Below, piece after piece: positions 4,051 to 64,000 of a stretch of DNA of 64,000 bases. The DNA is from Periplaneta americana (lineage: Eukaryota; Arthropoda; Insecta; Blattodea; Blattidae). Below the pieces are notes generated by a model. That model had not been told where the DNA came from, ran no database searches, and saw nothing but the letters and a program-made list of their open reading frames with translations. The stretch is taken from contig NC_091123.1 in NCBI RefSeq assembly GCF_040183065.1, positions 114,593,127 through 114,657,126 on the forward strand. Reading direction: 5' to 3'. The translations under genes were made by a program, and so were the position numbers. How positions within the stretch are numbered: position 1 is the first letter of the stretch; the number at the start of each line of letters is the position of its first letter.

Positions 4051-4059
4051 GTTTAACTG

Positions 4060-4319
4060 GCCACCGGCGTGGCTCAGTCGGTTCAAGCGCTTGCCTGTCG
4101 GTCTGACGTTGCGCTCGCGCGCGGGTTCGATCCCCGCTTGGACTGATTACCTGGTAGAGTTTTTTACGAAGTTTTCTCAAGCCGTAAGGTGAATGCCAGG
4201 TAATCTATGGCAAATCCAGGGCCTCATCTCGCCAAATACCATCTCGCTATCACCAATATCATCGACGCTAAATAACCTGGTAGTTGATAAATCGTCGTTA
4301 AATAACCAACTAGAAAAAC
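4060..4319 (+). mobile_element. tRNA-derived SINE (family with 'CGTCGTTAAATAACC' tail)
   Basis: The head has an A-box-like GTGGCTCAGTCGGTTCAAGC and a B-box GGGTTCGATCCCC. A body with 'ggtgaatgccaggtaatc' follows, and the 3' end reads CGTCGTTAAATAACC. Flanks carry a 9-bp direct repeat, GTTTAACTG, at 4051-4059 and 4320-4328. The copy at 26,978-27,234 belongs to the same family. It is Pol III-type and non-coding. Confidence 0.8.
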
Positions 4320-4328
4320 GTTTAACTG

Positions 4329-5850: not shown

Positions 5851-5854
5851 AGAC

Positions 5855-12900: not shown

Positions 12901-12965
12901 CGTAGAATTACTTCTTTCTCTTTACTTGGTATGGGGCTAAATTAAGAACTGACAGTTAAATAAAA

Positions 12966-29013: not shown

Positions 29014-31251
<2,238 letters not shown>

Positions 31252-34433: not shown

Positions 34434-35568
34434 CAGAGTGTCCCAAATTAATGTATACACATTTTGAAACACTATTCCTCAGCAACGAGATGAGACAGAA
34501 ATACGATTTTTCCGGTTTTGTATTCCTTAAACCCGTATATGTTCAAAATGCCCCCCTTCCGCCACAGTACACTCCCTACAACGACGTACAGTATATTAGA
34601 GCGACATACCAACTAGATTGTTGCTAATGGAATATCATTACAGGCATGTTCAGTCTGAACTTTCAGTTCCTCCAGCGTTTGTGGTTTTGTGACGTACACT
34701 GTGTCCTTTAGAGCTCTCCACAACGACGTACAGTATAATAGAGCGACATACCAACTGGATTGTTGCTAATGGAATATCATTACAGGCATGTTCAGTCTGA
34801 ACTTTCAGTTCCTCCAGCGTTTGTGGCCACAACGACGTACAGTATAATAGAGCGACATACCAACTGGATTGTTGCTAATGGAATATCATTACAGGTATGT
34901 TCAGTCTGAACTTTCAGTTCCGCCAGCGTTTGTGGTTTTGTGACGTACACTGTGTCCTTTAGAGCTCTCCATAGGTAGAAGTCGGGAGGGGTTAAATCCG
35001 GAGAACGAGGTGGAAACTCCGCAGAACTTCTTCTTCGTCCTATACTGTACGTCTCTGGGTCGTCCTCATTTAGTGCGTGCACAAGTCTTGGAATGTAAGG
35101 CTTCCATTTTTGAGCTCGCAAAATTCGATTAACACTGGATTTGCTGCTACCAATCTCACGAGAACATTGCCTTATTGACTTCTTTGGGGATTATGCAAAA
35201 GCCTTCATGACTGCATCAACACTCTCGTTATCGGTGGAACTTCTCTTTCTTCAGTAGCGCCCTTTCAACACATCTCGCACCGTTCCGTCGACTTCAAACT
35301 TGTCTCTAATTCGTGTGATAGTTAACCTTGTTGATGGTTGTGTACCAAACTCAACCCGCCAACGTCGTTGAACCTCAACATCATTCTCCACTTTCCAATA
35401 ACATTTCAATATCCACTTACGTTAATCGCATGTTTGTTTGTTTATAAACAGATGAACATGTTTCCATGCTTTCCATGCCTTCTGAATCACAAAAATCTTA
35501 TTTCTATCTCATTTGTTTGCTGTGAAATAGTATTTCAAAGAGTGTATACATCAATTTGGGACAATCTG
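34434..35568 (-). mobile_element. Mariner-like element with internal tandem duplication
   Basis: The inverted ends share GTCCCAAATTRATGTATACA and continue about 20 bp further inward. They start CAGAGTGTCCC (34,434) and end GGGACAATCTG (35,568), with TA on both sides. The minus strand encodes broken transposase text: 'RLVHALNEDDPETY' and 'FPPRSPDLTPPDFYLWRALK', the latter containing the S-P-D-L-x-P-x-D motif of mariner-type transposases. The 3' part of the gene is repeated about three times (34,575-35,000). The catalytic core upstream is eroded. Confidence 0.8.
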
Positions 35569-46240: not shown

Positions 46241-46462
46241 TAATACAGATTATGTATCGACTGCTCTTTCACCGTACTTAATAACACAAAATGCTCTATC
46301 TATATGTAAAACAACGATAAATGTTAGGAAGTTCTGTTAATTATTGTAGATTGCATTACATCTGATCAGTTAAATGCAGGGAATCAAAGGAGTTATGAAT
46401 GAAGCAGGGTATTGAAATATATTGAAATTAAAACACCTCTATTATGTGTTAAAGGAACATCC

Positions 46463-46468
46463 TTTATT
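46463..46468 (-). promoter_or_regulatory. Candidate polyadenylation signal of the cuticle gene
   Basis: Minus-strand AATAAA lies 632 bp beyond the stop codon at 47,100, with a T/G-bearing stretch just downstream. It is the first canonical hexamer I found on the minus strand in the 3' flank. Usage is inferred. Confidence 0.4.
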
Positions 46469-47099
46469 TCACATAAAATACATGGCAACACAATCCCTCA
46501 GATAATGAAGGATTTATAAGTCTGTACAGATTATTACGAAAATAAAAAATACAATCTCTTTATATTAAAACATTTACACTGCAATAAAAAACAAAGCATA
46601 TAGTTCTGTCGGTAAACAACATTTTGCAAAGTAATAATACTTATACTGTATAACGACCTCAAAAATGAGATCGTGTGTACTCGAAAAGAAGAGATTTGGC
46701 AAGTAGAAAAAAATAAGTTAATACTATCATGAAAATCTTCACTGGCACACTTTTACTCTTAACACCAAGAAGAATTTGGCGTATTACAACAAATGAAATT
46801 AATTTTGAATCATCAAATCAAGTCTATGATTGGCTGCATTTACTCTATTCGCTGTGGCGCGAACTTTGCAGCCTCTTTCTTATAACAAAATATTGGTTGT
46901 TGGAGAATGTGTTGGCACTGGGGTGCTTTTGACATTACACCTGACCTAAAAGTACGTAACAAATATGAGACTTGTAAATACTGATTCTACAAAACTTATG
47001 TACACTTAAATAAAAAGTTCAGCACAACAATCGTATCGCTCGCCGTGCCGAGTAGTCCTAGTCCGTGCGCGTGGAGTCGAGCAGTCGTTGAAATGTCGT

Positions 47100-50000
47100 T
47101 TACCCGTTGTAAGGAGGGAGGTATTCTCTATCAGGCTGAGAAGGCCTAGTGCCTGGGAACTGCGTGTCCGAGGATACGCCAGGTCTTCCTGCTCCTCCAC
47201 TAGGACCACCTGGTCCACCAGGACGACCAACAGGCCCAGTTGGACCACCAGGACCGCTAGGGCCACCGGGACCTGGGTAACCTCCGCTCGGTCCACCAGG
47301 ACCCCCTGCGCCAGGGAATCCACCAGTAGGGCCTGAGGGACGGCCTGATCCTGGAAATCCTCCGCTAGGACCACTTGGTCCACCTCCACTTGGGTATCCT
47401 CCACTAGGACCACCTGGACCAGCAGCTCCTGGGTATCCTCCACTGGGGCCTCCTGGACCACCAGCTCCTGGGTATCCTCCGCTGGGACCTCCTGGACCAC
47501 CAGCTCCTGGGTATCCGCCGCTGGGACCTCCTGGACCACCAGCTCCTGGGTATCCTCCGCTTGGACCTCCTGGACCACCAGCTCCTGGGTATCCTCCGCT
47601 TGGACCTCCTGGACCACCAGCTCCTGGGTATCCTCCGCTTGGACCTCCTGGACCACCAGCTCCTGGGTATCCTCCGCTTGGACCTCCTGGACCACCAGCT
47701 CCTGGGTATCCTCCGCTTGGACCTCCAGGTCCGCCTCCACTAGGGTATCCTCCACTGGGTCCACCAGGTCCGCCGGCGCCTGGGTATCCTCCACTGGGAC
47801 CTCCTGGACCTCCTGCACTTGGGTATCCTCCACTAGGACCACTTGGTCCACCTGGTCCACCGGCACCAGGGTATCCTCCACTGGGACCACCTGGCCTACC
47901 TGCACCTGGGTATCCTCCACTGGGACCACCTGGACTACCTGCGCCCGGATATCCTCCGCTTGGACCACCGGCGCCAGGTCGGCCTCCAGGACCACCTGCA
48001 CCAGGGAAACCTCCTGGACCGCTAGGACCTCCTGGACCTCCAGCGCTTGGATAACCACCGGGACTTCCTGCGCCAGGATAACCTCCAGGACCTCCAGCAC
48101 CAGGGAAACCTCCAGGTCTAGATGAACCTCCAGGACCACCAGCTCCAGGGAAATCATTTGGACGACCACCAGGTCCAGAGGGACCTCCGGGACCACCAGC
48201 ACCAGGAAAACCTCCAGGACGACCACCAGCTCCAGGCCCACCACCTGATGGGAAACCCCCAGGACCTCCAGGGAACACTCCGCCGGGCCCTGCGGGGAAT
48301 CCGCCAGGACCAGCAGGGAAACCAGCCACACCACCAGGACCACCAGGACCTTGCGGCCCTCCGATTATAGAGTAATCATAGATGAATTCATTGAGGCCGT
48401 AGAGACTAGGAGCAGTGTTGCAGTCGAACTGGTCCCACCACACACACACGAAGTATTCCTGATGGAAGACTGTACCGTTGGGACACAAGAAGTCGTATGT
48501 TTTGTTGTTGGCGCAAACATGGAAAGCTTGGCACTGTGTCTCCACATCAGCATAGTAACCGGGGAAGGGCTGTTGATCGCATGAGAATGATGTTAGAGGT
48601 ACCTCAGCGTAAATAGGATAATCGATGCCGGGCTCGCCAGGAATTGCAGAGTAATCTCCTTCATCGACTGTGCCCTCATCGCCTCCAGGAAAACCTCCCG
48701 GTCCACCAGGGAAACCACCAGGTGAGCCAGGGAATCCACCAGGAAAGCCACCGGGTCTACCTCCTGGGAAACCTCCGCCTGGGGCACCACCGCCTGTGCC
48801 TTGTGGTCCGCCGCTAGGGAATCCACCACCTTGCTGACCTCCGCCAGATGGGCCAGTGGGAAATCCACCTGATGGACCACCAGAACCTGGTCTTCCGCCT
48901 TGTTGCCCACCGCCAGCAGGTCCAGACGGGAATCCTCCAGAAGGTCCGCCGCCAGATGGGCCAGAGGGATAATCGGCTTGTGGGCCTCCACCAGAAGGTC
49001 CAGAGGGGTAGCCACCAGGACGTCCGCCGGAGGGTCCAGAAGGAAAGCCACCAGGACGACCAGTTGAAGGTCCACCAGAAGGGCCAGAAGGAAAGCCACC
49101 AGGACGACCAGTTGAAGGTCCACCAGAAGGTCCAGAAGGAAAGCCACCAGGACCACCAGTTGAGGGTCCACCAGAAGGTCCAGAAGGGTATCCACCCTGA
49201 GGTCCGCCACCAGAAGGTCCGCTCGGGAAGCCACCTGGTCGTCCACCTGGCCGTCCACCAGAAGGACCTCCAGATGGATATCCTCCTTGAGGTCCACCAG
49301 ATGGTCCACCTGATGGGAAGCCGCCTGGACCACCACTAGAAGGTCCACCAGATGGATAACCTTGTTGTCCGCCACCGGCAGGTCCTGAAGGAAAACCGCC
49401 AGGTCGTCCACCGGATGGACCACCAGATGGTCCGCCAGATGGGTAGTCGCTTTGAGGTCCACCAGAAGGACCACCGGAAGGATATCCTCCTTGTTGTCCG
49501 CCACCAGAAGGTCCAGAAGGAAAGCCACCAGGTCGACCACCGGAAGGTCCAGAAGGAAAGCCACCAGGTCGACCACCGGAAGGCCCACCGGATGGATAAC
49601 CGCCTTGAGGTCCACCAGATGGTCCGCCTGATGGGTATCCTCCCTGAGGTCCGCCGCCAGAAGGTCCGGAGGGAAAGCCACCTGGACGACCACCAGAGGG
49701 TCCACCGGCTGATGGTCCACCAGATGGTCCGCCAGATGGGTATCCCTGAGATCCACCGCCGGATGGTCCTGAAGGGAAGCCACCAGGACGTCCACCAGAA
49801 GGTCCACCAGAAGGTCCACCAGATGGATATCCTTGAGTTCCGCCACCAGAAGGTCCTGATGGAAAGCCACCGGGACGACCTCCTGATGGTCCACCGGATG
49901 GATAACCGCCCTGAGGTCCACTTCCAGGTCGACCTCCGGATGGTCCACCGCCAGAAGGACCAGAAGGGAAGTCGTTTGGTCTGCCAGTGGATGGGCCACC

Positions 50001-50300
50001 AGAGGGAAAACCTCCTTGAGGACCACCGCCCGATGGGCCTGATGGGAAGCCCGGACCAGAAGGACGGCCGGAGGGATATCCTGCCTGGCCACCCTGTTGC
50101 GATCCCCCGGAAGGGAATCCGGGCCCGCCACCTGGAGCTCCACCACCAGATGGTCCACCTGATGGGTAACCACCTGATGGTCCTGCACCAGGTCTGCCAC
50201 CTGAGGGGGAAGGACCACCTGTACCTCCACCAGGCTGTGAGCCGGGACCCCCTGATACTAAGGGATTTTGGGGTCGATTATAGGTGTATCCTTCTTGGGC
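47100..50300 (-). CDS. Exon 3 of secreted chitin-binding, Gly/Pro/Ser-repeat cuticle protein
   Basis: It encodes residues 19-1,084 of the inferred 1,084-aa protein and ends in TAA (47,102-47,100). It begins right after a minus-strand acceptor, 'attgttgtaattcacag', with 'AQEGYTYNRPQNP'. Residues ~30-555 are a Gly/Pro/Ser array built from 'RPGGFPSGPSGGG' and 'QGGYPSGGPSGG' modules. An acidic linker follows (~557-591). Then comes one type-2 chitin-binding domain (CBM14/peritrophin-A) with cysteines at 592, 608, 614, 624, 637 and 645 (spacing 15-5-9-12-7) and aromatics 'PFPGYYADVETQ'. The C-terminal arm repeats 'GGPSGGYPGAGGP' (13 residues, 39 bp). One chitin-binding domain plus low-complexity arms suggests a CPAP1-type extracellular cuticle protein, perhaps elastic like resilin. 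It has no RR domain. Antisense open frames of 445 and 545 codons are shadows of the repeats. Copy number of the 39-bp repeat may be misassembled. Confidence 0.92.
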   Translation of the reverse strand, partial: AQEGYTYNRPQNPLVSGGPGSQPGGGTGGPSPSGGRPGAGPSGGYPSGGPSGGGAPGGGPGFPSGGSQQGGQAGYPSGRPSGPGFPSGPSGGGPQGGFPSGGPSTGRPNDFPSGPSGGGPSGGRPGSGPQGGYPSGGPSGGRPGGFPSGPSGGGTQGYPSGGPSGGPSGGRPGGFPSGPSGGGSQGYPSGGPSGGPSAGGPSGGRPGGFPSGPSGGGPQGGYPSGGPSGGPQGGYPSGGPSGGRPGGFPSGPSGGRPGGFPSGPSGGGQQGGYPSGGPSGGPQSDYPSGGPSGGPSGGRPGGFPSGPAGGGQQGYPSGGPSSGGPGGFPSGGPSGGPQGGYPSGGPSGGRPGGRPGGFPSGPSGGGPQGGYPSGPSGGPSTGGPGGFPSGPSGGPSTGRPGGFPSGPSGGPSTGRPGGFPSGPSGGRPGGYPSGPSGGGPQADYPSGPSGGGPSGGFPSGPAGGGQQGGRPGSGGPSGGFPTGPSGGGQQGGGFPSGGPQGTGGGAPGGGFPGGRPGGFPGGFPGSPGGFPGGPGGFPGGDEGTVDEGDYSAIPGEPGIDYPIYAEVPLTSFSCDQQPFPGYYADVETQCQAFHVCANNKTYDFLCPNGTVFHQEYFVCVWWDQFDCNTAPSLYGLNEFIYDYSIIGGPQGPGGPGGVAGFPAGPGGFPAGPGGVFPGGPGGFPSGGGPGAGGRPGGFPGAGGPGGPSGPGGRPNDFPGAGGPGGSSRPGGFPGAGGPGGYPGAGSPGGYPSAGGPGGPSGPGGFPGAGGPGGRPGAGGPSGGYPGAGSPGGPSGGYPGAGRPGGPSGGYPGAGGPGGPSGPSGGYPSAGGPGGPSGGYPGAGGPGGPSGGYPSGGGPGGPSGGYPGAGGPGGPSGGYPGAGGPGGPSGGYPGAGGPGGPSGGYPGAGGPGGPSGGYPGAGGPGGPSGGYPGAGGPGGPSGGYPGAGGPGGPSGGYPGAAGPGGPSGGYPSGGGPSGPSGGFPGSGRPSGPTGGFPGAGGPGGPSGGYPGPGGPSGPGGPTGPVGRPGGPGGPSGGAGRPGVSSDTQFPGTRPSQPDREYLPPYNG

Positions 50301-50403
50301 CTGTGAATTACAACAATCCCAAGTTATTTGATTAGGTCTACTCTTGATATTTGACATCAAAATTATTCGACAAATACTATAATGGTATATTGTTTATACT
50401 TAC

Positions 50404-50432
50404 CAAACATGTACGGCTAATAGCCAGGAGCG
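50404..50432 (-). CDS. Exon 2 (29 nt) of the cuticle protein: core of signal peptide
   Basis: It is bounded on the minus strand by an excellent acceptor (cgcttcttttgtttcag) and donor (GTAAGTATA). The exon supplies two bases of a split codon and then 'LLAISRTCL', ending in phase 0 at exon 3. The alternative frames either hit a stop or lack the phase match. The intron to exon 3 is 103 bp. Together with exon 1 it gives MKACTLFIALLAISRTCLA, with predicted cleavage before QEGY. Confidence 0.88.
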
Positions 50433-50825
50433 CTGAAACAAAAGAAGCGAACTGTGAAATTTAGAGAAAAGTACAGCCACAGCTATGGCTATTACAAGTT
50501 ACTATTTTACAAGAAGTCAGGATTAAAATTCTAGTTTACAAAATTGGAGTTTAAAGCCGTAAGAGACAATAAAATATGCGTCACACACAATTTGCAGTGA
50601 TACAAGATACACACCACTTCATAGTTCCTTACTGCAACTTTACATAGGGGTATTTCTGAACTGATTGTTACAATAAGTAATTTTATAAACGGCAGATAGC
50701 GATTACATCGTTCGCACGCACATAAAGAATTCAACATTTTATTGGAATTCCTTGCGCAAAATGTTGTCTTCAAGCGGTAAATTGGCAACATTATCTCGGA
50801 ACCGAAATTTGTCGTGATATATATT

Positions 50826-50935
50826 TTTATTCGATTATTTAACGACGCTGTATCAACTACTGGGTTATTTAGCGTAGATAGAATTCATGATACCGAGATG
50901 GTATTTGGAGCGATGAGGATGCTGGTAACTTAAAG
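50826..50935 (-). mobile_element. Truncated SINE in the cuticle gene's long intron
   Basis: It starts 'TTATTTAACGACGCTGTATC' (inverse of the SINE 3' end) and continues with 'GGTTATTTAGCGT' and 'GGTATTTGGAG'. The tRNA-like head is missing. Same family as 32,515-32,770. Confidence 0.6.
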
Positions 50936-51650
50936 TATAGGTACACTGGTGATAATTTTAGGGCGCTGAATAAACTTTCAATTTCGCGTTAGTGTGTGGC
51001 AACAGAACCTCATCTGAGTAGGACAAAACGATGCTTCTAGTTTATTTTGTCAGAGATTGGAAACAAAGATAGTAGTTTTCACCGACTTCTCAAAAGGAAA
51101 TTTGAGACTTTGAACTTGCATGTACGGTATCGTTGTCATGCAACATTAGGAAGTGAAGAGAGGCTGGTCCAGAAACACTTGGATTATTATTATATAAGCA
51201 AATATTATATTGAATTATATTAAAGTATTTCCAGAAAGTAAAAAAGTTGTAGCTGCAATTTTTCTGTATGTTGAACTGAAATAATAAACATATTTTGATT
51301 ACGTATAAAATGTTAAAAAATAAAACACTCCTGTCAGATTTTTTTTTGAAATGACAATAACACTTTTTTATTGTTCTCTCGTGGAAGCAGGTGACTGCTT
51401 TGAAGCTTAAGAATTTCATCAATGATAACATTGATTTCAAGTAGGAGAGAATGTAAGATGTGATGTAGAATATCGGCTGGCTCTTGTAAGTTAATTGCGT
51501 GAGTTATCAAAACCTACCTCTAAAATATCTTAAGTCAGTCAAGCTATACTTAGGAAATAAAATACAAATTCGAATATATTTGACTTGCATAGTTTGTGTT
51601 ACTGTAAGTATACTTTATTCGAGAATTCACTTTATACCAATTTTTAAAGT
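50936..51650. other. Intron sequence, no feature recognised
   Basis: AT-rich interior of the 9-kb intron. No exon-like frame with flanking splice sites was found. Confidence 0.45.
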
Positions 51651-51665
51651 AATTATAATAACTAT

Positions 51666-51817
51666 ACACGCGTTTAGCATGAGACGAACTCGATAGCTCA
51701 GTGGTAGAGCGCCTGACCGGAGAACAGGAAGTCGCAGGTTCGATTCCCGCTCGAGGTTGTGAAATTTTTCTTTCATACCATGGCATGATTGTGACTATAA
51801 TAGTATTTAAATTCATC
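51666..51817 (+). mobile_element. tRNA-headed SINE with a perfect 15-bp target-site duplication
   Basis: AATTATAATAACTAT occurs at 51,651-51,665 and again at 51,818-51,832. The head (about 51,687-51,758) nearly folds as a tRNA: acceptor AACTCGA/TCGAGGT with one mismatch, D arm GCTC/GAGC, anticodon stem CCTG/CAGG with loop CCGGAGA (anticodon GGA, Ser), and T arm GCAGG TTCGATT CCCGC with one mismatch. C at position 33 instead of U, the target duplication and the extra 3' body make it a SINE rather than a tRNA gene. It lies in the cuticle gene's intron 1. Confidence 0.8.
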
Positions 51818-52182
51818 AATTATAATAACTATTCCAATATTGAATAGTTGAGGAAAAAGTAAAAGACCGTTGAGACGAATATATATAATATATACATAAT
51901 TGAGATTATTATAATATTTTTTCGATGTCGGAATTATCTAAGATGAAAGTTATGTAAGTTGCAAGTATGAGTTTTTAAGCATTTTAGCAGTCGTTGAGAA
52001 TTGTTTTTTAATTGAATAAGTTTATAAGTTTAATGCCAGAAAAATAGAATACAAATAAATTGTGAATATGCAAAATTCTAGCACTCCCCTGAAAGAGAGG
52101 AGAATTTAAAACACAATAAAGTTACATGCATAAATCACAATAAAATAACATCTAAAAGAAATCATATAAATTAATATACAAT

Positions 52183-52561
52183 AATAATAATAATATTAAT
52201 AATAATAATAATAATAATAATAATCCGTGGCGCTACAGTCCGTGAAGAGCCTAGACCGACCAGCCGGCTTCTAGCCTCACGGCCACATGCCGAAGCAGAG
52301 GTGGACGATCATCTAACCAGAATAGAGGTATCGTGTGGTTAGCACGATAATCCCCCCAGTCGTTATAGCTGCCATTCGCAACCGGATTTCGCTACCTATC
52401 GTAGCTCCCCAAGACCATCACGATGCTGGGTGGGCACCGGTCCCATACACTGTCCGAAATTTCATGAGAAAATGTCTTCCCCCCATGAGGACTCGAATCA
52501 GCGCGCATTTCGTAACGCGAGTCCTAGGCAGGATGCCTTAGACCACGACTCCACGGCGCGG
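52183..52561 (-). mobile_element. tRNA-derived SINE, minus orientation, with (AAT)n tail
   Basis: In reverse, the head starts near 52,561 with 'GCGCCGTGGAGTCGTGGTC' and a B-box 'GATTCGAGTCCTC'. The body runs to 52,225, where the (AAT)n tail (52,183-52,224) begins. It resembles a SINE I know from cockroach and termite sequence. A (TA)n run follows at 52,569-52,595. Confidence 0.75.
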
Positions 52562-52599
52562 GACATATTATGTATATATATATATATATATATATAATA

Positions 52600-54625
52600 T
52601 AATTGTATGGACAATTTTTATTATTATTAAATAGATAATATGCAATTGAACGTCTAATATTTACTCGGGTGAAACAACTTCAAAATAAGAATTTAGTACT
52701 GTATTAAGAACTCATTTCCAAATACATTAAAAGTGGGATAGTTTTAAGTCTCATATTTTTTAAAAGTCTTACTAACAGAGAAAATGTAAAAAGTTTATCA
52801 TCATAATCACCATAATCTTCTGATGATATGTATAAGTAAATCTTGGTTCTGAAAAAATATAACAGTTTGAATTTGAGGATTGTGAGTGAAAAATAAATTT
52901 ATATGTGTCATTATATCTTAAGACCTGTTTAAGAAACAGAAACGCGGACTATAATATGTTGATAGGGCACCGTTAAGAGTAAGCTTTCAGAACGTCAAGA
53001 AATCACCTGGAATGTAACCATTAACATCTATTCAAATAAATTACAACAAAAAATCGTAAGCCATCAGTAAGTGTCGGAAATAGACCTATCATTGATTAAT
53101 TAATGAATTCCATCACCATTATCCTATGCAGTAAAGTAGTGAACACGTTGTTCCGTCCTTGTGAGGAATATAAACTAACATTACATATTTGATAAAACGG
53201 TTTCCTTTGTTATGTAGTTATAGTTAGAAGACTGAAGACCACCGCTTAAAGGAAACACAGACCAAACATATCCAGTCTGTATGAAAGAGACATAAATTGT
53301 TTATTCTTATTTGAATCGATCCCGGGTCCGCTGGAATTGTGAATTATTTTATTATTTAAAAGAATAGGAAGTGTTGTAGACCCCGTTTAAGTTAGTGACA
53401 CAGAATCCTTGTACCCGATTGCGTGATTCTCTGTCCGTAACACTGAACCCGTTTCTGGGCAGGAAGTGAGAGACTGAATCTTCCATGAGAATCCTCTGGA
53501 TTCCACAAAATAAGTAAAGCATTTAATTAATTAGAGAATTTTTAGAGAAGCGCTGTTATAATAAGGGGAACTAGCACTCTCACTTTTGTCCCACACTCGT
53601 AAAAAAATTACGTTACGTCATATTTCATAGAAACACTCGCTCTTTATCGTCTGCCTTTGTTTCCTGTTTTCGCACGGTCGTTTAGGAAACTTGAAAAGGG
53701 TTTAGTTGTGAGTATCTTTTGCCAATCTCAGGCAACGAGCTTGTCAGGTGTTGTAATACTTCCCTTTTGTGTTGGAAGATAATCTGCAGAATGGATAGTA
53801 CAAAGCAGCTATTGTAAAATTACATGTGGGAATTGGAACAATTCTTATGACCACCTGCAGTCTTTATGGCCATTAGTATTATATTTCTATTCAAAGTTAA
53901 ACTAGTAGTTTAATAGAGTTATTTGCAGTTTACACAAATCTCCTTCACTTGGGGACACAGAACGCATTAGGTTCACAGTTATTTTAAATATTTCACAACA
54001 GATTTAAGGACACGGACTTCTTCAATTATTTTAAAATCACCAACATCAAGGTTGTCTTAGAGAATCTTTCCACTTTTTCCTTGAACGTCCTTCCATTATG
54101 TTTGTTACTTTGTATGTCATACTTCGTGTATTCTACTTCCCTTCTGTTTTCTATGTTAATAAGCTTTCAGCTCAAATGTTTGGTCTTAAGTTCCCTTTCG
54201 TATAATTCGAATATTAATATTTTTATACTTTCTGGTTATATGAAGTATACAAAAAACGTTGTGCTGCTGTAAAACATATATTACGAAATTTTCTCTTCCA
54301 TTTTTTTAATAAAACTAAAACCTATAATTTACAGTGTCGTTAAAACAACGATCCAAGAAACAAGATACTTTGAAACTGGCACATATTACACCGTCTCTCG
54401 TGTATACCTTTTATATATCATCAGTAGGTACTTGAAATGTATATTAATCTTGGTTATATGCAAAACATCTTAGTATTTCGCACTTTAAGCGAAACTTAAT
54501 TCTTTTTTCCTCTTTTACGAAGTATAAGAAAAGTGTTTTAACACAGTGAAAACTGAGGTTTCGAAATAGTTATGTACATATACACAAATATTCAACTTCT
54601 CTGGTGTTGAAAAGGTGAGTTATTA
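52600..54625. other. Intron sequence, no feature recognised
   Basis: AT-rich part of the cuticle gene's intron 1. A 63-codon frame at 54,081-54,272 is Leu/Ser/Phe-rich without family resemblance. Confidence 0.45.
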
Positions 54626-55071
54626 GTCTAAAGCCCGGAATTTTAGGTGCTAAAAGTTAAGAATGACACTGAGCGTAGATGAATAGAAGTGGTGCCCTGA
54701 AGAGGATTTTAAGCTTAGTTCACAAGAGTCCGATATGTAATAATAGACAACAGAGTCAGAAGGACTGAGCAATGAATCTTGTAAACCGTGCGCTAATTTG
54801 TAAGTGGTGGTTAAGAGGATTAGAGACCCTTAATGGTACCAAAGGGAAAATACTGAATGACAAGAATGGCATCTCAAAGAAGTGGAGGCATGGCAATGAT
54901 AAATCGTGTGCTAGTTTGTAAAGTGGTGGTTGTGAGGATTAGAGATCTTTAGCGGTACCGAAGGGAAAATATTGAATGACATATCAAAGAAGTGGGGGCA
55001 TGGCTTCTATATTTATAAACTATAGCGAGGAACAATATTAACTTTTATCACCTAAAATTCCTGGCTCCAAC
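54626..55071. mobile_element. Terminal-inverted-repeat element with internal tandem duplication
   Basis: The inverted ends share GGAATTTTAGGTG, then TAAAAGTTAA after one mismatch. TTATTA flanks both sides. The inside contains two copies of a ~120-bp unit (54,775-54,890 and 54,898-55,005: 'GTGGTGGTTRWGAGGATTAG', 'GGGAAAATA'). A hAT-like MITE is likely but the target duplication is not 8 bp for certain. Confidence 0.6.
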
Positions 55072-55243
55072 TTATTACATGGCAGCCAACTGTTCATTTA
55101 CAATCTTTTTTCTTATTCACAACTTTCAAATCAGCTGTTAAAAATATATTAATGTGACTTAAATATTCCTACCTGCAAATAATGCCTTTCATGGCGATTT
55201 ATTTTTTATTTTTTGTGAGAATTACTTTCTCTATGAAAAATAT

Positions 55244-55479
55244 ACTATAGATCGTCTGTGGATTCTGTAGAGCAACTTGCGCATGACGTCACTTGAGAGA
55301 GGGCGGAGCCTTGCTCCCTTCCTTTCTCCAGGCGAGCTGGCGAGACTTCACATAGCGTTCCACTCCCACGGAATTTCTTTTGTGCCTTGACTACTCAGTG
55401 AATTAGCCAGCTATGACGCCAGTTGCGCAGGTCGTGTTTTGTGACTGACACTCTACAGATTCCACTGACGATCTATAGT
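55244..55479. mobile_element. TA-flanked MITE (~236 bp)
   Basis: The ends TATAGATCGTCTGTGGATTC and GAATC..-type inverse (GACGATCTATAG) form ~28-bp inverted repeats with two mismatches. The inner part also folds ('TTGCGCATGACGTCA' versus 'GACGCCAGTTGCGCA'). It is GC-richer than the surrounding intron. Confidence 0.65.
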
Positions 55480-56690
55480 TAATATTTTTAAATAATCAAT
55501 TACTTCATACCTCTCAAACATGTAACGAGGCAATTTGATTTTGCTATTTAGATGAAACTATGGATAATACACCGTTACTATAATTAACATGATTAAAATT
55601 AGCTAAGTAACTGAAAACAAATTTACAGAAATTAACACAAGAGTGATGACATAGAGAATTGTAAATTTTTCCTGTATAGCATACATTGTGAAGACACTAT
55701 GGTATGCAGGACAGTAGAAGTGCAACACTTCTTTAACTTCGTCATTAGAAGAAACAAATTAAAAGCTGTATTATAAATTGAATTATACAGATTAAAAGAC
55801 TTTCAATATTTTTTTTATCTAATGGCGGGACACTTGACTTAAGTCATTCCCCAATCGTCACCATGTAATGGGCGTCTCACTGAAGCTGTACAGTAGATTT
55901 TAACCGCATTAGGCGTAGCAATTGTTGCAACATGTAAGACGAACTACTACATAGCATCGTATGATGATTGATAGAGCTATGGTGAAGGAAACGGGAGTAC
56001 CCAGAGAAAACCTATTACCAAGCCTCACAAATTTGAGTTGGGCCTACAAAAAAAATAACTTATGTTTGTAAAACCTCTGAACTTCGCGAATCAAATTCTC
56101 ACTTATTAAATTTCATACAAACAAATCCTAAGTAATTGAGGAACTTAAGGAAAGCTATTTTTTTGTTTAGTTATTGCATTATAGTTATGTAGTATATATA
56201 ATTATTAATACCAAAGCATTGAAAAGGATGGGCCCTTTAACTAAAAGTCTACGCTTTCAGTACCTTTTTTCTTCAACGATAGTCCCACTGCATTGTTGAC
56301 GATTGTGGAGTGTTGACTGAAGCTACAAACTCTGAATATAATGTTTAACAGCATTATTTTCATTATGGCTATTTTCAAATATATTTAACGATTGATTTAT
56401 ACGCAGTCGGTGAGATTTTAGTGGTACTGGCTGGAATGATGCCAACTGAGGAAATATATGACAGTACACAAAGGAACTTCGTGATTTAAAAGATAGAACC
56501 TATTCGAACCGAAGATTATAATTTTCATGAGGTTTAGAGATCTATTAAATTATTCTTTTCTAAATTATTACTTCATTTACTGATTATCATGAAACTGAAA
56601 TTAGTTTATGAATCTGACAGGTTTAAATATGTTTCGTAAATAATAATTTCTCAGGAATTTTAGTGATTTTTAATGAAATTTTTTATCTTT
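55480..56690. other. Intron sequence, no feature recognised
   Basis: AT-rich sequence without supported features. Confidence 0.4.
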
Positions 56691-56694
56691 GTAG

Positions 56695-56892
56695 TTGCCA
56701 CGGTAGCTTAGTGCTAGCGTACTGGGATTATATTGCAGAGAACCTGGATTCCAATTTGTGTTGAATCACCTTGAATTTATAAGTTTTGTTGGGCAAGCCC
56801 GTGGTGCGGGCAACACAGGGGTTTTCTTCGGGTTCTCAGGTCCCCCTGTGACATTTCAACAATTATTTTTCATCATCATCATCATCATCTCC

Positions 56893-56924
<32 letters not shown>

Positions 56925-56926
56925 TA
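56695..56926 (+). mobile_element. tRNA-headed SINE with (ATC)n tail
   Basis: The head 'GCCACGGTAGCTTAGTGCTA' and a degenerate B-box 'CTGGATTCCAATTTG' are followed by a ~120-bp body. (ATC)n at 56,874-56,926 ends the copy. Confidence 0.6.
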
Positions 56927-57328
56927 TTACGAGTATAAGGTGCCGGTACAACCACCGTCTGTAGTGCACTCTGGACAGTCTCTGACGAAATATGTGGTCT
57001 ACGCTTTTCGGCACTAGTGACATCTATGAGCTATGTTCATAGAGTCGGTGCAATTACGGAAAATTAGAGACCCTGCCGTTATATCCACAAAATAATTGCT
57101 TCTATATTTTTACTATTTGATTGGTAACTTCAATATTTTTGTTGTTTTTTATTTTAGTAATTAGACTATTCTATAAATAAACTTACAAACGAACTAAAAT
57201 TTAATGTTACGTGATCCAGTTTCGATGCAAGATACATACTTTAGCGAACTGAGTTCTATTCAAAGCAGGGAATTGGGGCATTATCTTCCTTTAATGGGAA
57301 CGTCTTTGTACATCTTGATTACACAACA

Positions 57329-57528
57329 TTTAACACTGTATCACTTCGGAATATGTATGATAAGACTTTCTTGTGTTAAATTCTAACGTACTTTGTTTAC
57401 ATTTTTCTACCTTTTATGGGTCATCCTCAGTTCTGAGGATAACCCATAAAAGGTGGAAGGAAACATGTAAACAAGGTACGTTAGAATTTAACACAAGAAA
57501 GTCTTATCATACATATTCCGAACTTTTT
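57329..57528. mobile_element. Near-perfect palindrome: fold-back element B
   Basis: Symmetry is centred near 57,430 (CTCAGTTCTGAG). Arms run out to TTCGGAATATGTATGATAAG (57,345) and its exact inverse ending at 57,522, with few mismatches over ~178 bp. The outer motif is shared with 15,767-16,152, so both belong to one fold-back family with different centres. Confidence 0.85.
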
Positions 57529-58900
57529 TGTGTTGTGTTGGGCGTTAGCCTTGTATTGTGCTGACTACGTGGTCAGAGATTCCAGATATTGAGACAAGAG
57601 TGAAATTGGAACGAACCACTGGGTTTCAATACTCTTTGAAAACAGCTCTACGTAACATATGCGACAAATAAATTTCATTACTTTCCTTGCTCTAATAATG
57701 GACTGACATAGCTCTAATACGTTGATGTCTGACACTTGTAACACTGTAAAAACTCCAACAATTTTAATACTGTAAACATATTTAATTCCACTACTAGACT
57801 CAGTATTTTTGTGAACATACTTAAGGTGAAAGTTTTCTACATTGCTAATAAATTTGTTTTAAATACTGCAGTAACAAATGTTCGATTTAAAATATATTTT
57901 TTTAAATATCGCATAAGTATGCTATCCACTGCCTATCCAAGTAGACCGTAGTTCGATTTACCGCGTTGGCAATGAACGAGCTTTATCTTTCGTCCACGGA
58001 ACTGAGTTTTATCCACTGTCATGTGCTATGCTGAGTTGTCTCAGCGGTGACAGAGTGGTGTACTAACCACACGAATAGGGAGGCCCGCAATGTGAGCTTG
58101 TCTTCAATGTTGGTTCAAAGATATAACTCCTCCACACCACATTGAATTTTAAATCGGTATTATAAAGAGGTAAGACAAACGAAAAAAAAGAAAGCATAGT
58201 ATGGCTCTTCATAAAGCTAAAAGCTTTCTTATTACCTGGGAATAAGAATAATTTCATTTCTGAGTTGGGAGATGTGTGAGAAGTAATTGATTTGCTAGAA
58301 CGAGGATGATGATAGTAGAGCCTCCTATGGTTGAAAAAAGGCCTTTCATTTACAAGCATAAACCCTTTGTTTGTTCTAAAGTTTCTAAATAAGTTTTGTG
58401 GATTTACTTTACTTCCTAAAGGAACCATGTTGCCTTTTATAAATCTCTTAATCTCGGCCGGATTTGAACCCGTGTCAGTCGGTTCTGGTGACAACTACTT
58501 CACTACTTTAAATATTTATTTCTGCTTAATTGCAGATTATTAATAATTCATACAGATATTTGAATTCATAAACAGTAATATTAATAAAATACCTGAACAA
58601 ATAATTATCTTATACGTATATGAGGTATCATGTTAATATTTGGAACAAGAAATACTTTATTTACTATAAAAACGATCATTCTTAATATTTATTCCATTCC
58701 ATTCTGTTCTGTGCCTATGAAATTCGACCAGTCACTAGCAACGTGATTCAAATACAAGAAACGACAGACATGAAAAAAAAATTGTCAGCAGTACTATGAG
58801 AAATGATGACACTAGAAACATATAAAGTACAAACGGTGAAGAACTACATATATCAGGAAAAAAAAATTGAATGAACATAGTGGGATGAGTAACGATCTAA
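57529..58900. other. Intron sequence with degenerate tRNA-like patches
   Basis: 58,030-58,100 and the reverse strand at 58,450-58,500 ('GGCCGGATTTGAACCCG' in plus sense) look like eroded SINE heads. No boundaries could be set. Confidence 0.35.
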
Positions 58901-58927
58901 TCGCTCGGATAGCAACAGATTGGAGGA

Positions 58928-59134
58928 ATGTACGTAGGCTGTGTATGTTTAGTCAGCAGTTCTAAATCTGGTTTAATCCTCGTAAATGACACTAGTAAGG
59001 CATCACTCGTGAGACAACTAAGCCAGGAGATAATGGATATGAGTGGCCAGTTCCTTACCCATCCATTACACATATCGCTGACTAGCAATACAATTGCACT
59101 AATCAGACTTGAAGTGTATGCATTGGAAAAATAA
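58928..59134 (+). pseudogene. Possible chemoreceptor-like C-terminal fragment (weak)
   Basis: A 68-codon frame reads 'GLILVNDTSKASLVRQLSQE', then 'FLTHPLHISLTSNTIALIRL'. The pattern of a helical 'Q-L-x-Q-E-I' segment followed by 'Q-F-L-x-H-P-L' recalls the region before the last exon of insect gustatory receptors. There is no TYhhhhhQF signature. No flanking exon was found. Chance is a serious alternative. Confidence 0.2.
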
Positions 59135-59217
59135 TTATTTCAATTTTGTATCAGTTCAATCGTAAAAAAAAAGTTTATATAACGCAGATGGTTGGTATGT
59201 GAATTGGAGTAATACTG

Positions 59218-59304
59218 GGTGAACAGTATAGAGCAGAACAGGTTTCACTGCTGGCCGGCCGGCTATGCGCGCGAGGCTTCTGTTCTGCTCTGTACTGTTC
59301 ACTA
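59218..59304. repeat. Short GC-rich hairpin in intron 1
   Basis: GTGAACAGTATAGAGCAGAA (59,220-59,239) pairs with TTCTGCTCTGTACTGTTCAC (59,283-59,302). The ~35-nt loop is GC-rich with GGCCGGCCGGC. It lies about 160 bp downstream of the exon-1 donor. It could be a tiny MITE or a structured RNA segment. Confidence 0.65.
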
Positions 59305-59461
59305 AGTATAAGATCGGCTTAGTAGTTACAGTAAGAGTACTGGCATGTTATTTTGGGATACAGTATTTTAAAAAATGTCGTAAGTAGGGTATGAAATTAA
59401 TTTTTGTTATTACTACAAACATCTCTGATTTATTTTAATCTTTGTGTATTTCTATACTTAC

Positions 59462-59486
59462 CTATAAATAGCGTACACGCCTTCAT
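59462..59486 (-). CDS. Exon 1 coding part (25 nt) of the cuticle protein: start codon
   Basis: ATG at 59,486-59,484 has A at position -3. It encodes MKACTLFI plus one base, then donor GTAAGTATAG. The single leftover G joins exon 2's CG to make Ala, so both introns are phase-consistent (1, then 0). A short first exon, one long intron and signal-peptide splitting are common in insect cuticle genes. The intron is 9,029 bp and full of repeats. The ATG at 50,360 that would extend exon 3 lies inside intron 2 and is not needed. Confidence 0.85.
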
Positions 59487-59565
59487 GATTGTTGTGCAGC
59501 TTCTGTAACAGCATGAAGTTACGTGTTAAAAATGTATATGAGTAAGAAGAAACTGGTAATCCACT
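59487..59565 (-). promoter_or_regulatory. Predicted 5' leader of the cuticle gene, with an overlapping upstream ATG
   Basis: A transcript starting at about 59,565 would have a 79-nt leader. An upstream ATG at 59,514-59,512 is 28 nt ahead of the main ATG, out of frame, in poor context (T at -3). It would run through the exon 1-2 junction to a stop in exon 2. The start site is inferred from the TATA spacing. Confidence 0.45.
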
Positions 59566-59590
59566 AACACTTACTTGTATATTTCGAAGG

Positions 59591-59598
59591 TATTTATA
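59591..59598 (-). promoter_or_regulatory. TATA box of the cuticle gene
   Basis: Minus-strand TATAAATA. An initiator-like TTAGT (59,567-59,563, compare arthropod TCAGT) puts the start A about 33 bp downstream, close to the normal TATA spacing. Tissue-specific cuticle genes commonly use TATA promoters. Both elements are short, so the support is mainly their spacing to the exon-1 ATG. Confidence 0.6.
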
Positions 59599-60328
59599 TT
59601 TAATTGCTTAGAAACAACTGTCCCTAAAGATATTTAATGACAAAATGTTTTAAATAGTTAAATTTACAACAAAATATCACAGTTGCGTAGAGATGAATGA
59701 TCAGAATGATATACTGGTATATTTACAAAACGCATCGCTGTGAAATTTAGAATAAAAATTCGAAATTTTCTGTCTCGTAAAAAAAATCAATTTGAATTTT
59801 TGTATGTATCTTCATACACATCTCAACGAAGAATTTAAATTTAAATTTCAGTTTCAGTTTCCTTGAAGGAATTCTATTTTTACACTTTGATTGGAAGTAT
59901 ATATCTAGTGGGATAGATATCTATTAGTAATGGCATATTTATAAAATGATTAACGAAAACTATACCGCATCAGTAGAGTAGAAAAATATTATCTTCCATA
60001 TTTATATTAGAATACTTGGCACAAAGATATTGGCTTATCTTAAACATTTAACATGAAAAATATGGATTTTAATTAGGGGATAATATATGTACTTGGATTT
60101 AATATAGTGGACTCGTAGTTTCTCGAAATATGACGCGAGATGTAAGTTACTCATTAAGAATTAAGAAAATTGTTATCTGTGCGTGATTCGTTAACGAACA
60201 CGTGTTCGCAATAATAAAAACAAGAATATGGCTTAAGTCTTTTTAATGTTTACAAATATTAAACTTAAGAAATCAACGTTATTGAAACGTTCATTAATAG
60301 AAGTGTTAAATTATTTAATAATTTTCAG

Positions 60329-60408
60329 ATGATGCTCGAAGGAAACAACTAGAGTTACGGATTCGTTTCTTCAAGTCGAACACAGTGAAGGATGCCATCT
60401 ACGATACG
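60329..60408 (+). CDS. Candidate internal exon of an unidentified gene
   Basis: The 80-nt segment is preceded by 'ttatttaataattttcag' and followed by the donor GTGAGTAGT. Only one frame is open. It takes one base from an upstream exon and then reads 'DARRKQLELRIRFFKSNTVK' and 'DAIYDT', ending in phase 0. The composition (charged, hydrophobic, no low complexity) is protein-like. I do not recognise the family, and no partner exon was identified in the window. It runs in the opposite direction to the cuticle gene, 0.76 kb upstream of its predicted start. Gene partners may lie many kilobases away given the intron sizes here. Confidence 0.4.
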
Positions 60409-61285
60409 GTGAGTAGTGAAATGAATATTACCATTTATTATAAATATTTACGGAATGAACGGTATTTTATGTACATTTTGGGGTATGTCTTTCAAATGGT
60501 GACTAGGGAAGACTCCAACATTTCGGAATCCAATTCTGTTTCTATCTTCCTTTTAAGTTAGTCGGAGATGTTGCAATCTCAATTAAATTGGCTAGACAAG
60601 GAAGTATAACTTTGACAAAATGGCCCTAAAAAGTTTTATAGATTTATTCTCATGATAGATAAGTCTTTATTGAACCAGAAACAGAAATTATTTATATTAA
60701 TGTGGCATATAAAATAGATAAGTTATATGTTGTATGTATAAGTTTAGTTAATTTTAAATTATAATTTATAACTTCTATATTTCACTGTGATCAATTAAAA
60801 ATGTAATATTATATATGTGTATATATATATAATATTCTTTGATTTCTTTCTAGTATAGCAAATAGTAGGCCTAGTCCTTTACGTAGGAAATCAAATGTGT
60901 AAAATATAGGCTTCATATAGGATTTGGTACGCCTTAAGTACTTGTCGCTCGGAACGCAAGCAAAAATTCAAGACCGGTGGCTTTCACCTGTTTAACACGA
61001 GCTCATGTGCCTTAAGGTCTTGGTTTCCTCGCCTACTGTTACGCCTTGTTGCGCGGTCAGTGGCAAGATCCAGCACGTGGCTAGTGACTTGTTTACGGAC
61101 TTGCTACAAGTCTCTGGGAGATCCAGCCATAGGCTACGATTCAGAATTTAATCTCTAGTAACAAACGTGATGCAGTTAAAAAAGAACAAGTGACAAATTA
61201 AACTAAATTTAAATAAATAATAAATTGTAATAAAGTACATTGTGATTCTCTGTGTATAACACACCTTTTCATATACCTACATGTC
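60409..61285. other. No feature recognised
   Basis: AT-rich sequence following the exon candidate. Confidence 0.45.
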
Positions 61286-61289
61286 TTAT

Positions 61290-61545
61290 TTACTTTTTAA
61301 TTGGTTATGTTACGACACTTTATCAACTGTTCTGGTTATGTATCGTCTGAATGAGATGAAGGTGATAATGTCAGCGAAATGAGTCTAGGATCCAGCGCTG
61401 AATGTTACCCAGCATTTGCTCTTAATGAGTTAAGGGAAAAGCCCGGAAAAAACCTCAACCAGGTAACTTGTCTCAACCAGGATTTGAACCCAGGTCCACT
61501 CGTTTTACGATCAGACGTGCTAACTGTTACACCAAAGCGGTGGAC
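61290..61545 (-). mobile_element. tRNA-derived SINE, minus orientation
   Basis: In reverse the head (61,545-61,470) has 'GTCCACCGCTTTGGTGTAAC' and B-box 'CTGGGTTCAAATCCTGG'. The tail is near 61,300 ('GATAAAGTGTCGTAACATAA'). It matches 32,515-32,770 over its length. Confidence 0.75.
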
Positions 61546-63000
61546 TCCTACAAATTTTAGCAATTCCCCATTCAGCGAGTGACTCTCAAAGAAACCAAGT
61601 ACTCAGCATGTGCCCATATGGCAATAATGGATTAAAAATGACAGGGAAATTGAAGAATATTTTATCTAAAAACAATATCGTACAAATCTATCGTTAATCG
61701 AATTTCTACCTCTTTCGAGGGAAAAGGTAAACTGAGTTACATGTAGGCCTACCATGTTTACCATGTTTGTCGTGGTTAATATTACCAGTAACGAGTCTTT
61801 TGTGCTATTATTCCACATAAAATACTAGACATGATTATTCCAATGGCGATTTGCATTACCATTTCAAAAACGCGCAGAAATTGGCATGACATAACTTGAA
61901 GATGTAGGTCTGTGAATAATTTTTAATTTCACGCAAAAAATGTGTACATATTTCGACGAGGAGATCAGAAACGTACTGATTATGTCTGTGACAAAATGAC
62001 TGCCGATTGGTTTGAAATATTTTCAGTATGAAATATTTTTAATTTGTAATAGTTTCCCTTTGCAATTAAATTTTTAATGTCATTATACACCAAAAACGTT
62101 TGTTTTGTTACATTTGTGCAAAGCAAATGGTTCTTAAACAGATACTAAAAAGGTCTATGTAAGAAAATTTTGATCAGATGCTCTTGATAACAAAATGGCT
62201 TCCAATATCTTCCTTAGAATTTTGTGTTTGAAGTAAGATAATTTCTCATAGCAATAGTCCAATTGATCAGGACCTCCGATTAGAGTCTTCTGCTTTTATG
62301 TTGCCAGAAACTTAATTTAATTTCTTTGCATGAGGTTCGAGTTAATGTCCATAAAAATTCGATTTCTTCCCGAAATGTCACTGAAGTTCCACTTTTCTTC
62401 ACACACTGCTGTGGGCCTTACCTCGCCTGTCTGCGAAGCTCCACTTGGTTTGTGTCTTGAAGGCAAGCACTAGACTGATGCTTCCATGATTCCTCCTGCC
62501 AGTATTTATACCAACACTTGCCATCCAGGGCGCCCTCGCAAAACACCCAGAGAATTCGAACCCTACCTTCTAGCAAACTCTTCTTCAAGGATGTATGCTC
62601 CATAACGTCGGAGGAGGGGGTTGAGAATAATTCGTGCAATATGGTAAGCAAAGCCACCTCCACCCGCATTGCTAACAATAAACAAGAGATGGTTTTTCTG
62701 ATTGGCTCTCTTTTGGTCTGCTTGGAGGGAGATCTGGTCCGGAAACTATCTTGAGCTTCGGTTACATAGTATGACGTCAGGGATTATGTGATTGTGGCTG
62801 TTTTGTGGTGGGAATAATTTCACTAACTTGGATGCAACAAGGCTAAGGAAGAAAGGAGGAGAGAGAGCGAAAGAAATGAAGGAAGTGGTGGGGGGTGTCT
62901 TCGTGTTGCTCTTCGCTGACCTGCAGAATGAGGAGAGTGGGTTTCTTAAATGCATTTCTCTCTCTTTCGTTCTTGTTGAAGATTCACATGCTTCGATTCG
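61546..63000. other. No gene supported
   Basis: Overlapping frames at 62,418-62,754 on both strands and a donor-like ATG|GTAAGC at about 62,643 were inspected. No consistent exon could be built. Confidence 0.4.
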
Positions 63001-63019
63001 GATACTGTTATAGACCGCT

Positions 63020-63250
63020 TTGTTGCAGAGGAGAAGCTATTACATGATAGCCGAGTACTTTCACTGCTCTCAGAAGCCGGGCGTGCGCTGGATGTGGGGT
63101 AGTAGTGTACCATATCGCACGAGCTGGCGGGAGCGCTCTGCCTGCAGCCGGCCTCCAAGACCATCGGCCGCCGTTATCTAGATACGCGGGTACGCCGATT
63201 TCAGTGACTGTGTAACGCCGCGCCGTCTGCGGCATATTCGTGAACACTTT
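63020..63250. promoter_or_regulatory. CpG-rich patch, possible promoter (weak)
   Basis: This stretch is clearly richer in CpG than its surroundings and has an initiator-like TTCAGTGACTG on the plus strand at about 63,198. No TATA box is visible. Direction and gene are unknown. Confidence 0.25.
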
Positions 63251-63415
63251 CTACGGAATTTAAACTGTAATTATTCTAAGTGATTATGCGTAACTCCATA
63301 GAGACATGGACGAAATATAGAGGCTGAGTTTTAGTTTTATCCAATCTAGTCCACGGATAAGGTCATTGATTGACCTAATTTTATTGTTCCTTCGTTTTAT
63401 GCACGGTATGTTGTC

Positions 63416-63417
<2 letters not shown>

Positions 63418-63465
<48 letters not shown>
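63418..63465. repeat. (ATA)n microsatellite
   Basis: About 16 repeats, followed by imperfect GAT repeats. Another (AAT)n run lies at 63,618-63,655. Confidence 0.9.
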
Positions 63466-63466
<1 letters not shown>

Positions 63467-63617
63467 TAGTGATAGTGATAGTGATGATAATAATACTGAT
63501 GATAACAATAATATATTTCAGTTGCTTTGTAGCTGTACATTTGAAATGGAATCGAATGTAACTGCATTCCCTGTAGGATACTCAATCTACTTTAATAAGA
63601 ACAGAAAAAAAAAAAAA

Positions 63618-63656
<39 letters not shown>

Positions 63657-63660
63657 CTTC

Positions 63661-63969
63661 ATCCGACACAACTAGGAATATTAAATCCAAACGTTTGAGA
63701 TGGGCAGGACCCGTAGCACGTACCTATGGGCGAATCCAGAAATGCGTATGAGTATACTGTAGAGTGTAGACCGTAGAGCGTTTCTTGCGAGGTCGGAGGG
63801 AAAAAGGCCTTTTTTGGGGATGTCGAGATGTACATGGGAGGATAATATAAAAATGTATTTGAGTGAGGTGGGATATGATGGCAGGGAATGGATTAATCTT
63901 ACTGAGGATAGGGACCGATGGCGGGCTTATGTGAGGGCGGCAATGAATCTCCGGGTTGCTTAAAAACCA
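63661..63969 (+). mobile_element. LINE 3' end, 'NLRV' family, copy 4
   Basis: It reads in broken frames from 'IKSKRLRWAGPVAR' through 'MYLSEVGYDGREWI' and 'DRWRAYVRAAMNLRV', then stop. A small insertion near 63,750 and other indels disrupt the frame. It is followed by (AAT)n (63,977-64,000), which runs off the window. Confidence 0.7.
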
Positions 63970-64000
63970 TTTGTAAATAATAATAATAATAATAATAATA

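Follow-up and report, generated by a model that had tools for sequence, protein, structure and literature searches.

Among described cuticle proteins, pro-resilin is laid out as an array of repeats A, a chitin-binding domain and an array of repeats B (PMC7737337; PMC10743668, section 12). CPAP1 proteins are defined by one ChtBD2 domain together with a signal peptide (PMC7379184, PMC5377371, PMC3504105), with a domain consensus of CX15-17CX5-6CX9CX12CX6-7C and, in Bombyx, lengths that range from 110 to 1902 amino acids (PMC7379184). The gene described here, from Periplaneta americana, looks like a CPAP1 gene, yet its domain is flanked by arms of the pro-resilin kind. It lies on the minus strand of a 64,000-nucleotide (nt) stretch of contig NC_091123.1, here C7 (C7:114593127-114657126), which is called the window throughout; coordinates are positions in the window unless a contig label is given, and genome searches covered 3.23 Gb in 91 contigs.

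Two further bodies of work bear on such a gene. Insects are not alone in having elastic proteins that bind chitin: Cq-M13, a protein of the crayfish molar tooth, binds chitin, is rich in Gly, Pro and Tyr, and has been shown to have some elasticity (PMC4444123). In Anopheles, according to PMC2259329, 86% of the CPR genes that have introns interrupt the signal peptide, first coding exons measure 3-36 nt, and 93% of genes carry both a TATA box and an initiator. Open-access literature yielded no CPAP1/CBM_14 protein with resilin-like repeats and nothing on its repeat strings, subscription papers and protein databases being outside that scope, and the open-access literature on micro-exon signal peptides in insect cuticle likewise yielded no paper.

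With a probability of about 0.78, the locus is a real three-exon gene for a secreted CPAP1-type cuticle protein whose disordered Gly/Pro arms are anchored to chitin. Its short, split signal exons are of a sort known from cuticle genes. An earlier note on this DNA had described the split signal; the resilin-like layout, absent from that note, is in our view the more interesting feature.

Exon structure and the split signal peptide

The coding part of exon 1 (59486-59462, ATGAAGGCGTGTACGCTATTTATAG) is 25 nt long and encodes MKACTLFI plus one nucleotide, followed by a GTAAGT donor that ranks 7th of 3563 GT sites. Beyond an intron of 9029 nt (50433-59461), exon 2 (50432-50404, CGCTCCTGGCTATTAGCCGTACATGTTTG) supplies 29 nt encoding (A)LLAISRTCL between a TTTCAG acceptor, ranked 15th of 3663, and a second GTAAGT donor, ranked 32nd of 3563; by splice strength this exon is third among 19521 short AG..GT exons on the same strand. 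Intron 2 is only 103 nt long (50301-50403), and the coding part of exon 3 (50300-47100) opens after a CACAG acceptor (score 2.26, rank 200 of 3663) and continues for 1066 residues to a TAA stop at 47102-47100. The 25 and 29 nt of the two small exons restore the frame, and the three exons join in matching phases into 1084 residues before the stop, as the earlier note had proposed.

The joined N-terminus, MKACTLFIALLAISRTCLA, is followed by QEGYTYNRP and has a von Heijne-type signal-peptide score of 9.7, with a predicted cut after residue 19 (Ala19). It is assembled from eight residues and one nucleotide of exon 1, the 29 nt of exon 2, and the first codon of exon 3, which is Ala19 itself. The 19-residue signal and its cleavage point, both claimed before, agree with this prediction; the accompanying claim that the signal ends at the exon-3 acceptor does not, since its last residue is already encoded by exon 3. 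The strength of the splice sites, the matching phases, the hydropathy of the peptide and the comparison with shuffled sequence all support a signal peptide built through the junctions of two tiny coding exons. The large repeat reading frame taken alone indeed lacks a signal peptide, scoring -3.3 from its in-frame ATG vs 9.7 for the joined exons; this ATG, described earlier as a false start at 50360, is actually at 50357, inside intron 2.

Other readings of the same region were tried and rejected. Translation from the ATG at 50357 gives no signal, two-exon models without exon 2 reach at best 7.2 among the 15 models listed (vs 31.0 for the three-exon model), and skipping of exon 2 removes 29 nt and breaks the frame. 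Genome searches with the DNA around exon 1 and with the DNA around exon 2 each returned the self-match only.

Splice donors, acceptors and signal peptides were all scored with matrices, and chance was gauged against dinucleotide-shuffled sequence. The proposed model ranks first among the in-frame models in the window, whether these number 22 under a strict threshold or 135 and 860 under looser ones, and it was equalled by none of 300 full-model shuffles, in which all of the sequence upstream of exon 3 was randomised and the best of which scored 27.9 vs 31.0. Of 18 in-window candidates for exon 1, the one at 59486 has the top combined score and leads in both donor strength and hydropathy. In a search carried 40 kb past the window, which covered 53.5 kb and 88 candidates, it again ranks first by donor plus three times hydropathy. 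Its donor scores 6.45 and its 10-residue hydropathy 2.86. Cut-offs of at least 6.4 and at least 2.4 for these two measures, set after the candidate had been seen, were passed by 26 of 2000 shuffles, by 5 of 2000 with a TATA box 40-160 nt upstream, and by 2 of 2000 when a purine at -3 was added. The core reading, a three-exon gene for a presumably secreted cuticle protein with two tiny coding exons, is supported, and the reading as a whole partly so.

With a split signal the norm in the Anopheles CPR genes of PMC2259329, this layout is ordinary for a cuticle gene. The short first coding exon and the TATA box are likewise found in both; here, however, the signal region is cut or bounded by two introns, the first of which spans 9 kb, both of them differences of detail.

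Repeat arms, chitin-binding domain and coding evidence

Most of exon 3 consists of two Gly/Pro-rich repeat arms on either side of a predicted chitin-binding domain. The N-terminal repeats A (48717-50300), of GPSGGRPGGFPSGPSGGGPQGGYPSG type, comprise 528 residues including a short N-terminal lead, with 42.8% Gly, 21.6% Pro and nine copies of GYPSGG. The C-terminal repeats B (47103-48371) comprise 423 residues with 46.8% Gly, 23.4% Pro and two copies of GYPSGG, and over much of this arm run as a 13-residue unit, GGPGGPSGGYPGA, encoded by a 39-nt unit in 17.6 copies (Tandem Repeats Finder, 47272-47966). Ser makes up 15% of A and 9% of B, Thr 1.7% and 0.9%, and Tyr 3.0-4.7% of the arms. The mature protein would begin QEGYTYNRPQNPLV and have about 1065 residues.

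The domain between the arms (48420-48581), preceded by IPGEPGIDYPIYAEVPLTSF, is a single copy of CBM_14 (ChtBD2, peritrophin-A), which Pfam places at exon-3 residues 574-627 with an E value of 4.3e-10 and 40 bits vs a cut-off of 22.1. It is intact, with six Cys in a spacing of 15-5-9-12-7. A PDB sequence search returned only five weak chitinase-type matches (E 0.0017 and worse), and a scan of viral contigs for relatives gave three pattern matches, none of them confirmed. Units of the C-terminal arm, used as queries against the genome, gave four matches from 51 candidates scored, all within this gene, the search being confined to that arm.

The repeat region contains long open frames on both strands and in other frames, and the openness of the long frame means little, because 39-nt and other multiple-of-three repeats keep several frames open. 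Exon 3 could on these grounds be taken for a pseudogene or repeat artefact, or for a frame held open by nothing but its repeat unit, yet such an origin is barely credible beside an intact six-cysteine CBM_14 and a frame with 0 stops, where the other two contain 3 and 25. Where repeat copies differ, moreover, the difference mostly falls on the third base of a codon: 110 of 144 cases in A and 183 of 241 in B. In-register copies differ by 96 synonymous vs 26 non-synonymous codon pairs in A and by 147 vs 52 in B, ratios to be read as indicative, since the compared pairs overlap one another and were selected by the agreement of their neighbours. From this synonymous excess it follows that selection has maintained the protein frame.

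Relationship to CPAP1 proteins

The gene shares with CPAP1 proteins a single six-cysteine ChtBD2 domain of canonical spacing (15-5-9-12-7), long flanks and a predicted signal peptide, the last present only in the three-exon model (score 9.7 on a von Heijne-type matrix). Searched against the whole genome, its domain has 46 matches, itself among them, out of 58 candidates scored at E <= 1. Ten other CBM_14 match rows, some of which are two exons of one gene, form a CPAP1-like cluster on both strands within C7:114.395-117.863 Mb. The nearest paralog, at C7:115.49-115.50 Mb, is 66% identical once its two exons are joined and has IPGEPGxDYPIYxxVPxTSFxC in common with this gene. In that paralog an intron after Cys-Gln splits the domain, in phase 0 by the best donor, and broken matches suggest that some other paralogs may also have it; this gene, unlike its nearest paralog, is without it.

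Gly/Pro-rich repeat arrays set the flanks of this gene apart from those of other CPAP1-type loci. An open stretch of 60 residues with more than 40% Gly plus Pro was found at 0 of 25 other fetched loci (with about 1.5 kb of flank either side in most cases), some of which overlap and eight of which are best CBM_14 matches, not close kin. A tree of 12 CBM_14 domains, made only of unnamed paralogs from the same genome, has no starred branch and 6 of 9 open; because it offers neither a well-supported branch nor a named ortholog, no CPAP1 letter is assigned and no orthology is claimed.

Two other CBM_14 loci have long open frames. At C7:114.418 Mb (1135-8310 of that locus), about 220 kb from this gene, a frame of 2391 residues starts with half a CBM_14 domain and looks rich in Ser and Thr; it would encode a giant protein of CPAP1-like type. 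At C10:74658153-74658296, a CBM_14 match lies inside a frame whose open length is given as 10,491 residues.

Comparison with pro-resilin

Like pro-resilin, the predicted protein carries two types of short Gly/Pro repeats, N-terminal and C-terminal of a chitin-binding domain, and a signal peptide on its joined exons. Unlike pro-resilin, it has CBM_14 in place of the R&R consensus, its mature N-terminus is QEGYTYNRPQNPLV and not xxEPPVNSYLPPS, it has no YGAP repeats, and it is far richer in proline. A Pfam scan of the protein at E 10, in which HMMER filters drop most matches above about 0.1, gave no R&R domain (PF00379). The protein is not a resilin, as it has neither an R&R domain nor EPPVNSYLPP at its start. 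Cq-M13, also Gly/Pro-rich and chitin-binding, a property predicted for the protein described here, is a pro-resilin family member whose domain is RR-2 and not CBM_14 (PMC4444123).

The genome has a canonical-looking pro-resilin of its own, at C12:120435521 (120.44 Mb), in which YGAP repeats are followed by an R&R domain and then by GYPSGG repeats. Its R&R domain is 71% identical to the Drosophila domain. GYPSGG occurs 11 times in the protein described here vs 8 times in the C-terminal arm of the genome's pro-resilin, and shuffled sequence of like composition gives on average no more than 0.05 per region. Matches between the DNA of the two genes' arrays are short, with 67-90% identity and E values down to 5e-9. 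Common descent of the arrays could explain them, and so could similar codon usage for one and the same peptide. Next to the pro-resilin at C12:120.435 Mb, further R&R matches of resilin-like type form a cluster, and large groups of R&R cuticle-domain matches occur at C11:143.9-144.7 Mb and C16:22.4-50.5 Mb.

Transcript ends and alternative readings

A TATA box, TATAAATA, lies at 59591-59598, upstream of the start codon as the earlier note had said; the same sequence occurs 14 times on this strand of the 64 kb. The 5' untranslated region (UTR) may reach back to about 59565, the presumed start of transcription. At the other end, a single AATAAA polyadenylation signal (46463-46468) is the sole AATAAA or ATTAAA between the stop codon and 46400, and it fits the 3' end previously placed near 46445.

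A number of observations weigh against the proposed gene and its role; the first group concerns exon 1. When exon 2 is held constant, an equally good exon 1 arises in 28 of 1000 shuffles; exon 1 is less secure because exon 2 already supplies LLAIS..CLA and so gives many partners a passable signal. On signal score alone the candidate at 55097 is ahead (10.6 vs 9.7), but its donor scores 0.42; those at 89330 and 83763, outside the window, have higher hydropathy (2.98 and 2.99) with donors of 1.4 and 1.0; and 71370, also outside the window, is the nearest contender and a second candidate with both a TATA box and a good donor. It is conceivable, if quite improbable, that exons 2 and 3 are right and the true first exon is a different one, for example 71370-71313 (MFAEAFFQSYVIVKVLTTA plus ALLAISRTCLA, upstream of the window; donor 6.17, hydropathy 2.41), 51590-51518 (donor 6.28, with TATAAA at 51636) or 62603-62567, or that the choice of first exon varies between tissues. 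The chance rate just given speaks for such an exchange, whereas all three examples fall below 59486 on donor plus hydropathy, and the hydrophobic cores at 51590 and 62603 are weak (10-residue hydropathy, KD10, of 1.71 and 1.82). The exon at 59486 is retained as the first coding exon.

The promoter is a second point. The initiator claimed at the right distance from the TATA box proved weak: initiator-like sites at the usual spacing (TATA at -27 and -33) match only 4 of 6 bases, as do 12% of all positions, and sites matching 5 of 6 bases would put the TATA box at -44 and -59, which is too far. The assumed 5'UTR also contains an out-of-frame ATG at 59514, ahead of the start codon, whose frame of 22 codons, read by hand, runs across the main start and terminates within exon 2. 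An alternative is that a non-coding exon lies further upstream and the exon with the start codon begins at 59502, after the acceptor TGTTACAG, in which case the TATA box at 59598 would not be the promoter. That acceptor scores 2.12 (rank 228 of 3663), near the 2.26 of the accepted exon-3 acceptor, and a splice into 59502 would remove the upstream ATG. This arrangement is nevertheless unlikely, as TATAAATA stands at a fitting distance, a TATA box with an initiator is usual in the Anopheles CPR cuticle genes of PMC2259329, and the upstream ATG has a weak context, with T at -3. A start of transcription close downstream of the TATA box is preferred.

The remaining points concern the protein. Single-sequence structure prediction of CBM_14 was uninformative, with a pLDDT (predicted local distance difference test) of 41, and was not used. 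Elasticity is inferred from composition and layout, and the composition departs from that of resilin: Tyr accounts for 3.0-4.7% of the arms vs 3.2% (A) and 8.1% (B) in resilin, and Pro is far higher, at 22-23% vs 6-8% in the arms of the genome's pro-resilin. With more Pro than resilin and less Tyr than its C-terminal arm, there is room for a stiffer or merely space-filling role. That the repeats make something stiff, a barrier or a coat like that of mucins, and nothing elastic, is a distinct possibility, though below even odds. The Gly content of 43-47%, the Gly/Pro repeats on both sides of the chitin-binding domain and the GYPSGG motif, the latter two in common with pro-resilin, point instead to an elastic material, and Thr at 1.7% and 0.9% is unlike a Ser/Thr-rich mucin, though Ser reaches 15% and 9%. 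The likely role is still that of a chitin-anchored, disordered and possibly elastic cuticle protein.

Other features of the window

Apart from the gene, a Pfam search of the six frames of about 50300-64000, which covers intron 1, gave no domain at E <= 0.1. Intron 1 contains a 178-bp, near-perfect palindromic element (57345-57522) resembling a miniature inverted-repeat transposable element, with many genome copies: the 40 scored of 1207 candidates gave at least 84 match rows, in most cases one place matched on each strand. A second foldback element with 30-bp arms lies just inside the intron at 59212-59309, and a tRNA-Ser-like sequence with anticodon GGA (51686-51759, plus strand; 51 bits in Rfam) may be a gene or a short interspersed nuclear element.

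Elsewhere in the window, a pyrimidine-rich array of 20-nt units (12960-13965) keeps several long plus-strand frames open, and a reverse transcriptase fragment (RVT_1) is found at 18986-19402. Two overlapping minus-strand frames occupy 29303-30885, one of them with DUF659, a domain that goes with transposases. A 109-bp tandem duplication with 98% matches (34718-34935) overlaps a 132-residue frame that has no Pfam match.

Proposed role and significance

Transcription would start near 59565 and polyadenylation would occur near 46445. Epidermal cells would secrete the protein after cleavage of the signal behind Ala19, and CBM_14 would then anchor the mature protein to chitin, leaving two Gly/Pro-rich, presumably disordered arms of 528 and 423 residues to stretch as an extensible filler, probably linked to their neighbours through Tyr. 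The protein would in this way work like pro-resilin on a different chitin-binding chassis.

A more far-reaching proposal is offered tentatively, at less than even odds: the gene may encode a second, independently built chitin-anchored elastomer, with resilin-like arms on a CPAP1 chassis, that could co-assemble or cross-link with true pro-resilin in flexible cuticle. If the arms are elastic, the resilin design of disordered Gly/Pro arms around a chitin anchor would not be tied to the R&R domain. The gene would then add a candidate to the 'resilome' as outlined in PMC7737337, and its product would lend itself naturally to the design of elastomers that bind chitin through a disulfide-rich anchor.

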